Virus record (IMG/VR): IMGVR_UViG_3300044638_004703
Span: 1 to 21,990 of that record
Strand: one strand, 5' to 3'
DNA length: 21,990 bases
DNA from: a virus
The notes under the pieces were generated by a model that ran no database searches, was not told the origin of the DNA, and worked only from the letters and a program-made list of their open reading frames with translations. Shown here piece by piece: positions 280-10,351 of this stretch (position 1 is its first letter; each line of letters opens with the position of its first letter). Position numbers and translations under genes: made by a program.

Positions 280-470
280 TGAAGACCAAAATTACTTTTG
301 AAGTAGTTGGTAGCAATAAGTCAGATATCGAGCGCAGGGCAATCACTGAAATTTCTGAGTTTTTAGGAATTGAAGCGGGAGCCGTAGAGTCTAAATGCGA
401 CATTGAGTTACATATCGAGCCCGAAACAGCAGGGAATTTCAAGGCAACCGTCTATGTGAGGGTAAAGTAA
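279..470 (+). CDS. Small hypothetical protein (63 aa)
   Basis: The ATG sits in a TAATG overlap with the gene before it, and the stop makes a second TAATG overlap with the methyltransferase gene after it, so it lies in the middle of a coupled three-gene string. The product alternates beta-like segments (KITFEVVG, IELHIEP, ATVYVRVK) with one helix-like segment (SDIERRAITEISEFLGI), a beta-alpha-beta-beta pattern of a small ferredoxin-like or dodecin-like fold. There are no membrane segments and only one cysteine. I do not recognise the family. The double overlap and coherent secondary-structure pattern argue that it is a real gene. Confidence 0.65.
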   Translation: MKTKITFEVVGSNKSDIERRAITEISEFLGIEAGAVESKCDIELHIEPETAGNFKATVYVRVK

Positions 471-1000
471 TGGGTAATTCAGCACCAGAAAACAAGTCTT
501 GGGCTGCTACTGTCATAAGCAAACTGAAGCCAAAAAGTGTTTTGGATATGGGTCCTGGTGAGGGTATTTATGGAAAAATTGTCCGCACATACTCGCCTAA
601 CACTGAAAAACTGGTAGGTGTAGAGATTTGGGCACCTTATGTAGAGCAGTTCCAACTTCGTGAGTTCTATGATGAAGTGTGGATTTGCGATGCTCGTATC
701 TATTCTGACTTCAAATATGACTTAGTAATTCTAGGAGATGTTCTAGAGCATATGAGCAAAGAAGATGCTGTTGCTCTATGGAAAAAAATCTCTAAGCAAG
801 CGAGGTACGCTCTTATCTCAGTCCCAATTATTCACTTCCCTCAGGGGATTCATCACGGTAATCCTTATGAAGTCCATGTAAAAGAAGACTGGACTAGCGA
901 AGAAGTTATAGAAAGTTTTCCTGGCATAGTGGCTCACGAAGACTTTGAAGTTACGGGCATTTACTTAGCAAAGTTTGACAATAGTAAGAAAAAGAAGTAG
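470..1000 (+). CDS. Class I SAM-dependent methyltransferase
   Basis: The 176-residue product has the Rossmann-type methyltransferase signature. Motif I is VLDMGPGEGIYG (residues 24-35), the acidic ribose-binding end of strand 2 is VGVEIW (49-54), and motif IV is DLVILGDVLEHM (84-95). This DVLEH form is common in small phage and bacterial methyltransferases acting on small molecules, nucleotides, RNA or glycans. No DNA-methylase catalytic motif (DPPY, NPPF or PCQ) is present, so a DNA-base methylase is unlikely. The substrate cannot be read from the sequence. The ATG is in a TAATG overlap with the preceding gene and has GAGGG about 8 bases upstream. The C-terminus ends in a lysine run. Confidence 0.85.
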   Translation: MGNSAPENKSWAATVISKLKPKSVLDMGPGEGIYGKIVRTYSPNTEKLVGVEIWAPYVEQFQLREFYDEVWICDARIYSDFKYDLVILGDVLEHMSKEDAVALWKKISKQARYALISVPIIHFPQGIHHGNPYEVHVKEDWTSEEVIESFPGIVAHEDFEVTGIYLAKFDNSKKKK

Positions 1001-7207: not shown

Positions 7208-8059
7208 ATGAAAATTGTTATAGCGACACCTATGTATGGTGGAAACTCTAAGAGCGTCTATGTATCTTGCCTCACTCAGTTGACTGGTGAATTGGCAAAG
7301 GCTGGGCACACTGTAAACATTATGTCCATCACCAATGAAAGCCTCATTACTAGAGCGCGAAACACTCTTGCTCATATGTTTATGAAGAGCGACGGTGATG
7401 CTCTTCTATTCATCGATGGAGACCACGGTTGGGTATCTGAAGACATCGTAAAGATGATTAACTCTGGTAAAGACCTTATCGGTGCCATCTACCCGATGAA
7501 ATCCATTAACTGGGACAACATCCGTGCCGCAGCGCTTGCTGGTAAGGAAAACCTAGAACTTTACTCTGGCAACTTTGCCATCAACTTCCTACCTGAGCCT
7601 CAGAACTTTAAGGCTGATGAACCTTTCAAGGTTCGCGATGTCGGCACTGGAATGATGTTTATTCGTCGTAATGTTCTTGAAGAAATGGCAAAATCTGACC
7701 TAGTCAAGAAGTACAAGAACAACTCACCTAGCGTTGACATTGCTATGGGTGAAGAAATTACTGAATACTTCACCACTTACATCACGCCTGAGCCAGAGGC
7801 AATCTTGCTATCTGAAGACTATGCTTTCTGTGACATCTGGCGTAAGTTAGGTCACGATGCGTGGGCTGCTCCTTGGGTTCGTATTACCCACGCTGGTGAG
7901 TTCAACTTCCCTGGCTACTTCCTAAATACTTTGGAAATTACTGGTCAAATGCAGGTAGACGAAAACGCTACTCCTAGTCAGCCAGTCCCTGCTGAATTGA
8001 GTCAAGCAGATTCTTTACAGTCGTTGGATACCATACTCGATGATTCTGAGTCGGAATAG
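7208..8059 (+). CDS. Glycosyltransferase, GT-A type
   Basis: The 283-residue product begins MKIVIATPMYGG, typical of a nucleotide-sugar-binding Rossmann-like strand, and has a DxD-type metal/nucleotide-sugar motif in LLFIDGDHGW (residues 67-75). Further family features are IGAIYPMK (91-98), VGTGMMFIRR (145-154) and LSEDYAFCDIWRKLGH (about 201-216), where the S/E-D pair often contributes the catalytic base. Phage members may glycosylate virion proteins, host surface glycans or modified DNA bases; nothing here decides between these. The C-terminal ~35 residues are acidic and low-complexity. Their coding bases (7974-8059) also encode, on the other strand, the end of the serine recombinase. Confidence 0.8.
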   Translation: MKIVIATPMYGGNSKSVYVSCLTQLTGELAKAGHTVNIMSITNESLITRARNTLAHMFMKSDGDALLFIDGDHGWVSEDIVKMINSGKDLIGAIYPMKSINWDNIRAAALAGKENLELYSGNFAINFLPEPQNFKADEPFKVRDVGTGMMFIRRNVLEEMAKSDLVKKYKNNSPSVDIAMGEEITEYFTTYITPEPEAILLSEDYAFCDIWRKLGHDAWAAPWVRITHAGEFNFPGYFLNTLEITGQMQVDENATPSQPVPAELSQADSLQSLDTILDDSESE

Positions 8060-8651
8060 AATCTCGGTTTAGTCCGTCAGCAATCTTTCTAAACGAAGCC
8101 CCTTGAGAACGCTCTAAGACCACTCGGTCTTTGACTTCTTGAGGGGTTTTGTTCATTGGTCCCATATCTACACCCCACACGACACCGCGAGCGCGACGGT
8201 CTTTGTGTACATCTTTCTGACGCTCAGCGATAATTCCGCGTTCCATCTCGGCTAAGGCAGACATAATGGTCACAACAAAACGACCTTGATAAGTTGCTGT
8301 GTCCAGATTGAGGTCAAGCATAACTAGACGCCAACCATTGGCATTTGCTCTGTCAATAATGTTCAAGAAATCTTTTGTGGAGCGGGCTAATCTGTCGATA
8401 CGGGTAACAAATAAAGCATTAGCCTCACCAGAATCAAGGCGTTTGAGGGCTGCGGTGAGTGCTGGTCTCCCTGAAATGTTTTTTCCAGAGCGACCCTCTT
8501 CGCGAATTAGTTCAATGTTTGTGTACCCAGCAATCTCGGCTGAGGTTTGTAGTTGACGCTCTTGAACATCAAGGCTTACCCCATCATTGACTTGGAGTTG
8601 AGTCGAGACGCGAGCGTAGAGTAACGCTATCTCTTTATTCGGTTCCGTCAT
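7974..8651 (-). CDS. Small serine recombinase (resolvase/invertase family)
   Basis: The N-terminal catalytic domain has LLYARVST with nucleophile S16, EEGRSGKNISGRPAL (51-65), the catalytic cluster TRIDRLARS (83-91, with D86, R87 and R90), and the long E-helix start MSALAEMERGIIAERQ. A C-terminal helix-turn-helix (about 175-222, ASFRKIADGLNRDSIP) follows. At 225 residues it is the size of a resolvase or invertase, far shorter than a large serine integrase (450 or more), and it lacks their zinc-ribbon/coiled-coil domain. It could resolve genome multimers, invert a segment or act in integration. I found no crossover site. Its start overlaps the gene before it by 17 bases and its end overlaps the glycosyltransferase gene by 86 bases on the opposite strand. 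Confidence 0.9.
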   Translation of the reverse strand: MTEPNKEIALLYARVSTQLQVNDGVSLDVQERQLQTSAEIAGYTNIELIREEGRSGKNISGRPALTAALKRLDSGEANALFVTRIDRLARSTKDFLNIIDRANANGWRLVMLDLNLDTATYQGRFVVTIMSALAEMERGIIAERQKDVHKDRRARGVVWGVDMGPMNKTPQEVKDRVVLERSQGASFRKIADGLNRDSIPTQNHRVWYPTTVKNLLDSIQQGLAD

Positions 8652-8991
8652 TGTCGACCTGCTTAGCCTCTGCTAGTTGAGCCTTACGCTTTACTTTGAA
8701 TTCTTTAGCCAAGTGGAAGTCGGTCTTGTTCTTGCTGTGAACGGTCTTTACCTGTTCTGGTCTGAAACTGCGAATACACTCTAATCCTTTAGGTCCACCG
8801 TAGACATCAATCCAAATAATGTTTTTCTCGGTAATTACTTTTTTGATAAAACGGAAGCGACCTCGCTGTCCAGCAATCTTTAGTTCAGTACCCTTTACAA
8901 CATTGCGACCATTGATTTGAATTTCGGTTTGGATATCCCAAGCGTCGCAAGGCTTAGGTGCCACTGGCACCACTGTCTTTTTCCTAGCCAT
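8635..8991 (-). CDS. Small conserved-looking phage protein (118 aa)
   Basis: I use the ATG at 8991, with AAGGAG six bases upstream, rather than a longer frame from 9027 lacking such a site. The product has a basic, proline-rich N-terminus (MARKKTVVPVAPKP) and a beta-rich core (about 22-85: GTELKIAGQRGRFRFIKKV, IIWIDVYGGPKG, IRSFRPEQVKTVH). The core resembles a small uncharacterised family seen repeatedly in actinophages, which I believe is catalogued as DUF7246. Function is unknown; the barrel-like pattern and positive charge allow nucleic-acid binding. It ends 17 bases inside the recombinase gene, so the two are probably co-translated. Confidence 0.7.
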   Translation of the reverse strand: MARKKTVVPVAPKPCDAWDIQTEIQINGRNVVKGTELKIAGQRGRFRFIKKVITEKNIIWIDVYGGPKGLECIRSFRPEQVKTVHSKNKTDFHLAKEFKVKRKAQLAEAKQVDNDGTE

Positions 8992-9006
8992 AATAATCTC
9001 CTTATT

Positions 9007-9026
9007 TGCTATTAGAAACAATAGCA
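9007..9026 (-). promoter_or_regulatory. Inverted repeat upstream of the 118-aa gene
   Basis: TGCTATT (9007-9013) and AATAGCA (9020-9026) are exact reverse complements around 6 bases, in the 48-base gap between the ABC/GNAT stop and the ATG at 8991. On the minus strand the TGCTATTGT sequence also fits an extended -10 (TGn plus TATTGT), with TTAGCA 19 bases upstream. It may be an operator over an internal promoter or a small hairpin in the leader. Confidence 0.35.
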
Positions 9027-9039
9027 CATACTACTGACA

Positions 9040-10125
9040 TTATGCTAATCCAATGTATTCGTGTGAATAACTCCAACGGTTAGGGTCAATGCTCCAACGC
9101 TGTTTTCCGTCTAAGTTTTGCCCGTCTGTGCGACGCTTATGGTTTTTAGATGTCGGTTTCCATAGTGGCGACTGGTCTCGATAACCGCCGAGGCGGGGGT
9201 GGCTGGTCTTAGAGAAATAACGCTTACCGTTGTCTAGGTAGTGCTGAGCAACTAACTCTGAAAGTTTAGGTCCCAGTCCAAAGCCTTGGTAGTCTGGGTG
9301 GATTACTAAACGATGCTCTCGGTACGCTTCCTTTACAGTTCCTGACGGATATGCGATAGATGCAACAAAACCTACTACTTCTCCGTTCCAGAGTGCCAAG
9401 TAGCAGTGTGCTGATTTGTTGAGCGATTCGGAGAGATAGTGATGCGGAGCGAAGTGGCTCCAAATTTCGTTTGAGCACGACTGTACTTCAAGTACCATTT
9501 CTGGTCGATGAAGATACCTTCCCGAAGCCCACTCGCCTCTGTCAGTGTCAATAATCCAGTCTGGCTCTATGTATTCCAAAATGTCTCGGTGACAGGTAGC
9601 CAAGACAATACCTTTTATGTCGTTCTTTCTTACATAGCGAGCCATTGCGGTTGAAGCAGCCTTAGCGACATTGCGGTCAATTACGGAAGTGAATTCGTCG
9701 ATGTGTGCGTTATTTTCTAGTGAGCGTGCCAAGTCAGCGCGGAACTGCTGGCCATTAGATAGGACTTCGTAAGGCTTTACCCACTCTGGTACGGACATAA
9801 GACCAGACGCTGAAAGTTTTTCTATGGCGTCTACTGGATTGGCAAAGTGAGATGCGATTGAGTGGCTGTTGTTCCAAACTGGAGAGGTGTAGACGCCTTT
9901 AGCAAAGTGGTCTAAAAGTTTTGATTTGCCAGTCCCAGATGCCCCGACAATTACGCCAATGCCCCAAGTGGTGGGTAGGTCATCTGGAATTAGATATGGG
10001 TAGAACTCTTCCGTGCCGTCTGAGTTGTAGTCAAAAGGCTTTATAAGTTCAGATGTAATCTCATCCATCACTACTTTTGAAGTGATTGGAGTAGGTGAGC
10101 GTTGTAATGTCTTCCAGTCCGTCAT
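9040..10125 (-). CDS. ABC-type ATPase fused to GNAT acetyltransferase domain
   Basis: Residues about 40-200 form an unusually compact ABC ATPase: Walker A GASGTGKS (61-68), signature LSNGQ (122-126), Walker B/glutamate HIDEFTS (141-147) and H-loop ATCHRD (176-181). Residues about 225-330 are a GNAT domain with VVGFVAS (250-256), REHRLVIHP (269-277) and the acyl-CoA pyrophosphate loop DYQGFGLG (278-285), followed by SKTSHPRLGGYRDQSPLW. This architecture corresponds to COG2401, an ABC-type ATPase fused to a predicted acetyltransferase. It has no membrane domain, so it is not a transporter. The acyl acceptor is unknown. By analogy with the GNAT-fold phage Mu Mom protein, DNA-base modification is one possibility. 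Basic tail from 325. Confidence 0.85.
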   Translation of the reverse strand: MTDWKTLQRSPTPITSKVVMDEITSELIKPFDYNSDGTEEFYPYLIPDDLPTTWGIGVIVGASGTGKSKLLDHFAKGVYTSPVWNNSHSIASHFANPVDAIEKLSASGLMSVPEWVKPYEVLSNGQQFRADLARSLENNAHIDEFTSVIDRNVAKAASTAMARYVRKNDIKGIVLATCHRDILEYIEPDWIIDTDRGEWASGRYLHRPEMVLEVQSCSNEIWSHFAPHHYLSESLNKSAHCYLALWNGEVVGFVASIAYPSGTVKEAYREHRLVIHPDYQGFGLGPKLSELVAQHYLDNGKRYFSKTSHPRLGGYRDQSPLWKPTSKNHKRRTDGQNLDGKQRWSIDPNRWSYSHEYIGLA

Positions 10126-10186: not shown

Positions 10187-10351
10187 ATGGCTAAAGAACA
10201 TGACGCTTCAAATCAATGCTCGGTATGTAAAGAAAGGTTTGTTGTCGACTCTTTGGCTCGCATATGTGAGATGAAGCACGACGGAGTTGTATTTGTTAGG
10301 CAACCTTATGTGCCTAGACCTAATCAAAAACCGCTAAAGCCTAAGGATTAG
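10187..10351 (+). CDS. Tiny Cys-containing protein (54 aa)
   Basis: An ATG with AGGGAGA upstream opens a 54-codon frame ending in TAG. The product has C11-x2-C14, then C27 and H31, spaced like a small zinc knuckle (CSVC ... C-E-M-K-H). The C-terminus is proline/lysine-rich (PYVPRPNQKPLKPKD). It is the only forward gene within a long minus-strand region, and it overlaps the end of the convergent 49-aa gene by 11 bases. Function unknown; a zinc-binding adaptor is possible. Confidence 0.55.
   Translation: MAKEHDASNQCSVCKERFVVDSLARICEMKHDGVVFVRQPYVPRPNQKPLKPKD

Follow-up and report, generated by a model that had tools for sequence, protein, structure and literature searches.

A phage ABC-type ATPase–GNAT fusion protein as a probable nucleic-acid acyl-modification enzyme of a known family

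What function could a phage have for an ATPase of the ABC type that lacks any transporter part and is joined instead to a GNAT acyltransferase? The question is raised by a gene located in the window, i.e., the whole 21,990-base virus record analyzed here, which also contains reading frames for a phage RNR, a primase-polymerase and a WhiB-like protein (the last recognized by eye). The gene occupies positions 9040..10125 (stop codon included) on the minus strand, a strand absent from the preliminary description of the locus; it starts with an ATG at 10125 and encodes a protein of 361 aa.

The architecture first proposed for this protein, a compact ABC ATPase joined to a GNAT domain, was borne out by a Pfam GNAT match, by invariant ABC motifs and by the folds of both halves. 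An AlphaFold2 model, for which an alignment of 59 sequences served as input, reached a pLDDT of 90.1 and a pTM of 0.84. The ABC-type ATPase domain comprises approximately residues 5-205 (9511..10113; this and the following protein features are on the minus strand). Residues 13-203 matched the ABC cassette MJ0796 (1l2t) with a Z of 13.2 over 165 residues and an rmsd of 3.2 (VIA-align), and the Pfam match of this half to PF00005 (E 0.0025) was sub-threshold by itself. Motif conservation was assessed in an alignment of 27 members, including the window, viral contigs and cultured phages, six of which were represented by two concatenated ORFs. All the ABC motifs noted previously were present: the P-loop (Walker A) GASGTGKS (residues 61-68; 9922..9945), with G61, S63, G64, G66 and K67 invariant in 27/27; the ABC signature LSNGQ (residues 122-126; 9748..9762), with invariant S123 and G125; Walker B and the D-loop in HIDEFTSVID (residues 141-150; 9676..9705; the part HIDEFTS being 141-147), with invariant D143, E144, S147 and D150; and the H-loop histidine 179 within ATCHRD (9589..9591), invariant in 27/27. 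Walker A, the signature, Walker B with its catalytic Glu, the D-loop, the H-loop and the fold together identify an ABC-type ATPase. The extent originally given for it, about 160 residues, was loose, since the P-loop and the H-loop lie ~ 120 residues apart and the entire ABC fold takes up ~ 190-200.

The GNAT acyltransferase domain (residues 208-361; 9043..9504) was recognized by Pfam (PF00583, E 4.9e-9), and its residues 208-359 matched the GNAT protein 1y9k with a Z of 14.5 over 140 residues and an rmsd of 3.5 (VIA-align). The QGFGLG acyl-CoA pyrophosphate loop was found as described at residues 280-285 (9271..9288); it is nearly invariant among the 27 relatives (G281 and G283 in 27/27, G285 in 26/27, Q280 in 25/27) and conforms to motif A, [QR]xxGx[GA], which, with the fold, assigns this half to the GNAT superfamily. 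The HHYL motif (residues 228-231; 9433..9444) contains two family hallmarks, Y230 (27/27) and H229 (26/27). Residues of the catalytic type are thus retained in the ABC and GNAT halves alike.

Comparison with nucleotide-binding domains of ABC transporters such as MJ0796 revealed the same fold, Walker A, LSxG[EQ] signature, Walker B, D-loop and H-loop. The window protein differs from them in its fusion to GNAT, in a shorter spacing between the P-loop and the signature and in the lack of a transmembrane part, while the conserved Q-loop glutamine was not seen in the alignment of its family. No transmembrane domain was detected in the protein or in the scanned adjacent genes, which gave DUF7246 and resolvase matches in Pfam. 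The earlier claim that no transporter part exists was therefore correct, and an ABC transporter ATPase was ruled out, as there is no membrane partner.

How widespread is such a protein? A profile match to phrog_11143 (E 7e-102) covering residues 15-359, i.e., practically the full length, with GNAT motif A coming after the ABC motifs, places the window protein in a family (hereafter ABC-GNAT) that is carried by hundreds of phages and prophages. Seventy-eight phage records were matched by tblastn, all with less than 60% identity to the window copy, and they ranged from T4-like phages (PX29, VmeM-32) to phages of Streptococcus, Lactococcus, Leptospira, Porphyromonas and Gordonia; some of the weakest matches were confined to the ABC half. 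In each of two profile-guided scans, at least 600 matches were obtained from viral contigs, and relatives are encoded in 399 stretches of prokaryote genomes. Dozens of further viral contigs encode close relatives (64-97% identity), and many of these contigs belong to records of 110-160 kb. In the ABC-GNAT tree, two large branches were resolved, and the window falls into the one composed mostly of large environmental phages (the window branch, as opposed to the distant branch). P335, MismyG, Oenococcus phage unk162 and Enterococcus phage 9184 encode the two halves in separate, adjoining ORFs, and in pT24 and TR-TP2 the protein is annotated as two ORFs. Since the halves occur as neighboring genes in other phages, the fusion joins natural partners. 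Nucleotide divergence from six close relatives corresponded to a dN/dS of 0.04-0.11, which indicates strong purifying selection on the window copy. Only 3 of 15 records of at least 100 kb that were sampled by RNR carry the gene, so it is an accessory one, and such patchy presence within one phage group is as expected for a counter-defence gene. The window copy is an ordinary member of this known family and adds little beyond its own sequence.

The suggestion that ABC-GNAT modifies nucleic acids is not new. Iyer et al. (2013) predicted that phage ABC-GNAT proteins acyl-modify DNA bases, a prediction repeated in 2021 (PMC7824862) with Tenacibaculum phage pT24 as an example. The DNA-modification role guessed at in the preliminary description therefore repeats an existing prediction, although of the roles it offered this one is the best supported, by the gene context of relatives. 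The pT24 locus shows 40% identity to the window ABC-GNAT (tblastn); it shares with it, and with phrog_11143 in general, both domains and their order, homology over the full length and the same invariant motifs, and it differs in being annotated as two ORFs rather than one fused ORF. COG2401 and MK0520, described as an 'ABC-type ATPase fused to a predicted acetyltransferase domain', resemble the window protein by described architecture only, and our literature search returned nothing on either of them. In Escherichia phage Cyrano/SSU5, a related ABC gene cluster bears the COG2401 annotation, but there, unlike in the window, two genes are involved, one for the ABC protein (221 aa) and one for the COG2401-labelled protein (296 aa), which had no match in Pfam.

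What the present analysis adds is contextual support from the neighbors of relatives, the DNA acyl-modification idea itself being already known. A survey of gene neighborhoods, proposed earlier as a check, yielded ParB, Com, PanD/CoA-transferase, formyltransferase and terminase genes, and these neighbors support DNA modification. The result is one of relatives: in contrast to the phage systems of the published prediction, the window copy has no ParB or donor-synthesis gene beside it, and neither PanD, CoA-transferase, formyltransferase nor Com adjoins it. The most frequent partner is a ParB_N-fold gene, which immediately adjoins ABC-GNAT in 96 of 112 distant-branch clusters (clusters at 70% identity) and lies elsewhere within the 5-kb flank in only 21 of the 112. 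In most distant-branch members, this ORF ends at or overlaps the ABC-GNAT start. Pfam confirmed ParB in the examples from Jace, P335, Oenococcus phage unk162, Cyrano, EastWest and L098, a locus designation of the kind used below. The unk162 gene (L009, 4291-4902) is annotated as a 'DNA modification methylase', and its only Pfam match is the ParB N-terminal domain. In the window branch, ParB was adjacent in only 1 of 40 clusters and was rare in the large relatives. ParB-fold domains were found in a 2025 survey to bind ATP, CTP or GTP, with an acetyltransferase-fused one binding GTP (PMC12704722). In Gordonia phages, P335, LE3, MismyG and Pmp13, both ParB and the terminase region adjoin ABC-GNAT.

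A second line of context comes from the Mu-like Pseudomonas phage Komp_PAO1_1 (transposase, Gam), in which a Com zinc ribbon (E 9e-21) is encoded just upstream of ABC-GNAT, between it and a tail-fibre assembly gene. This ORF (L011, 4584-4829; about 22093-22338 of the phage) is unannotated and lies among annotated small ORFs. In Mu, Com sits on mom, with com-mom behind the tail-fibre genes, and Com activates mom translation (PMC6483171); in Pseudomonas phage B3, the gene that overlaps Com encodes a D12 adenine DNA methylase. The position of Com in these three phages therefore indicates that ABC-GNAT occupies a slot otherwise held by DNA-modifying enzymes.

Is ABC-GNAT then a relative of Mom itself? 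The analogy drawn earlier with Mom of phage Mu, a methylcarbamoylase represented by PF25680 and by the solved structure 8bv8, is reasonable in the sense of working alike. Like Mom, ABC-GNAT would be a phage late modification gene, the GNAT fold of Mom being a published prediction, and Com precedes ABC-GNAT in Komp_PAO1_1 just as it precedes Mom in Mu. The analogy does not extend to membership: the window protein had no match to PF25680 at E 0.1, so by the Pfam model it was excluded from the Mom family; Mom has no ABC domain, and some relatives carry both genes. Profile comparison with Mom was weak and unstable, with a probability of 67% in one run and 1% in another. H229-Y230 aligned with H58-Y59 of Mu Mom in both comparisons, both weak overall, and because of the discrepant probabilities this alignment was not used as an argument for membership. 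R272 aligned with Mom R111 in the 67% comparison only, also weak overall, and a control with a solved GNAT missed the HY region. No Mom structure was among the VIA-align matches listed, which carries no weight because these listings give the top matches only. H229-Y230 and R272 are invariant or nearly so in ABC-GNAT, and the HY and Arg of Mom are nearly invariant in Mom. PF25680 genes were present in 12 of 50 window-branch records, and Mom-family genes adjoin ABC-GNAT at L138 and L149; in the records behind L024, L027, L086, L047 and L051, which are related viral contigs, they lie 8-35 kb from it. Among records of at least 100 kb, Mom was found in 5 of 11 with ABC-GNAT versus 0 of 12 without it, a co-occurrence that is only suggestive because the carriers are related and represent approximately two events rather than phylogenetically independent cases.

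Taken with the published prediction, these data make it probable that ABC-GNAT is a phage nucleic-acid acyl-modification enzyme that acts most likely on DNA bases. Acylation of a protein is an alternative that we consider unlikely; the target would be a host factor (for instance RNA polymerase, the ribosome or a defence protein), and the ABC domain would regulate the reaction in an ATP-dependent way. Most structural neighbors of the GNAT half are indeed protein N-acetyltransferases, e.g., RimI and Naa50, and host RNAP is a substrate of Rac, a phage GNAT that acetylates it (PMC7824862); however, such neighbors mirror only the common GNAT fold, and ParB, Com, terminase and Mom as gene neighbors fit DNA better. 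Also unlikely is a role like that of TmcA, an ATPase-GNAT fusion, with RNA or tRNA as the molecule modified. Some carriers, e.g., Jace, encode tRNAs, and TmcA (2zpa) appeared at rank 33 of the Foldseek matches, but its whole-length match was poor (TM 0.18-0.28), its ATPase is not of the ABC type, and the gene context indicates DNA handling and packaging. Modification of a virion tail component, also raised in the preliminary description, is very unlikely: in the window and in L021, L023, L024, L027, L028, L043 and L044, the genes just upstream, with the same orientation, encode tail fibres, and ABC-GNAT comes after tail genes in Mu-like phages, but the other window-branch relatives do not keep this neighborhood, the Gordonia phages, P335, LE3, MismyG and Pmp13 have ParB and the terminase region there instead, and Mu places its own DNA-modification gene at the same tail-end position.

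If ABC-GNAT acyl-modifies DNA, where would the acyl group come from? Two sets of neighbors look like donor or tailoring chemistry. The first, PanD with a short CoA-transferase III, lies directly downstream of ABC-GNAT at 10 loci (Jace, L197, L205, L207, L209, L226, L247, L293, L294 and L295; L196 is Jace again and was left out of the count). In Jace, gp87-gp88 (L003, 7086-8197) encode an aspartate decarboxylase and a half-length CoA-transferase III behind ABC-GNAT. The complete copies keep the Gly-Ser cleavage site of PanD and the FDxxAQA motif of the CoA-transferase, which contains the catalytic Asp of class III enzymes. The presence of PanD and/or CoA-transferase requires at least 6 changes on the ABC-GNAT tree. 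A single Gemmataceae genome assembly accounts for two of the loci and Thermoanaerobaculia for another; the genes at L293-L295, from cellular assemblies, could in principle be those of the host rather than of a prophage, a doubt that does not touch the viral contigs. The second set is represented by a PurN-like formyltransferase gene, which adjoins ABC-GNAT in 13 of the records inspected (ten Gordonia phages, Komp_PAO1_1 and two faecal phages), with Porphyromonas phage011a as a fourteenth; in 3 of 3 records searched whole, it was the sole gene of its kind. The gene at L006 (1799-2446) and gp3 of other Gordonia phages are annotated as 'tRNA-methyltransferase' or hypothetical; they match the Komp_PAO1_1 formyltransferase, and the example scanned with Pfam, that of Mariokart, matches the formyl transferase domain PF00551. 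Pfam searches of the large window-branch relatives detected no formyltransferase, CoA-transferase III or aspartate decarboxylase except for PanD in L176. As no donor enzyme was found beside the window copy or in its 22-kb fragment, the donor in this phage is presumably a host acyl-CoA.

The surroundings of the window copy were compared across 51 loci with recognized window neighbors. A DUF7246 gene (8635-9027, minus strand) directly follows ABC-GNAT and is near it in 26 of the 51; in another sub-branch, it is on the opposite strand. Two genes downstream of ABC-GNAT, a serine recombinase of 225 aa (7974-8651, minus strand), with a resolvase domain and a cut-down recombinase domain, recurs in 35 of the 51 loci. 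Beside it, a 22-nt inverted repeat (86%; 8900-8921 and 10207-10228) flanks ABC-GNAT, which gives the locus the look of an invertible cassette, and exceeds chance in simulation (0/100). Of the relatives checked, only the two closest ones, L020 and L021, keep the repeat at 19/22; it drops to 17/22 in L019 and to chance level in the others. Because the repeat decays in this way and the gene and recombinase keep the same orientation at 35 of 35 loci, with no inverted state among the 35 that show both, phase-variable inversion of ABC-GNAT was ruled out. Further away, the methyltransferase reported in the window (470-1000) was supported by Pfam, and the reported glycosyltransferase (7208-8059) was left unconfirmed, with no Pfam or PDB match and only a hit to phrog_1574, 'unknown function'. 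Elsewhere in the window branch, a C-5 cytosine DNA methylase was matched by a single gene next to ABC-GNAT, as was the Thoeris inhibitor Tad3 by another, which hints that this may be a counter-defence region. In one sub-branch (L170, L171, L172 and six other loci), ABC-GNAT is preceded by a conserved 519-aa ORF and followed by a 534-aa ORF.

How might a DNA acyl-modifying ABC-GNAT work? We infer that the GNAT domain would move an acyl group from acyl-CoA to an exocyclic amine of phage DNA, with H229, Y230 and R272 perhaps in its active site. The ABC domain would dimerize head to tail around two ATPs, and ATP binding and hydrolysis could load the protein on DNA or open it, presenting a base to the GNAT site. 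DNA acylated in this way would be protected against host restriction, as well as against other defences that target DNA. In ParB-containing relatives, the phage PanD and CoA-transferase III may produce the donor, e.g., beta-alanyl-CoA; in the window phage, it may be supplied by the host.

A bolder version of this scheme, which we offer only tentatively, is that these proteins form a machine for DNA hypermodification whose donor chemistry can be swapped. In one branch, a ParB-fold NTPase, ABC-GNAT, the phage PanD and a minimal CoA-transferase III would jointly produce beta-alanyl-CoA or a similar amino-acyl-CoA and attach it to bases; in others, a PurN-like formyltransferase would cap an amine of the adduct; and host acyl-CoA would be used in the window phage. 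If this is true, an ATP-driven acyltransferase would produce an amino-acylated DNA base, of which we know no earlier description. The two accessory cassettes and the Com-controlled copy turn a general prediction of acyl modification into specific, testable chemistry for a widespread family whose members are mostly mislabelled as 'ABC transporter' or 'hypothetical', and carriers such as Jace, Mariokart, P335, LE3 and Komp_PAO1_1 are held in culture collections. An acyl adduct, if confirmed, would represent another class of phage DNA modification and would explain how these phages evade restriction.
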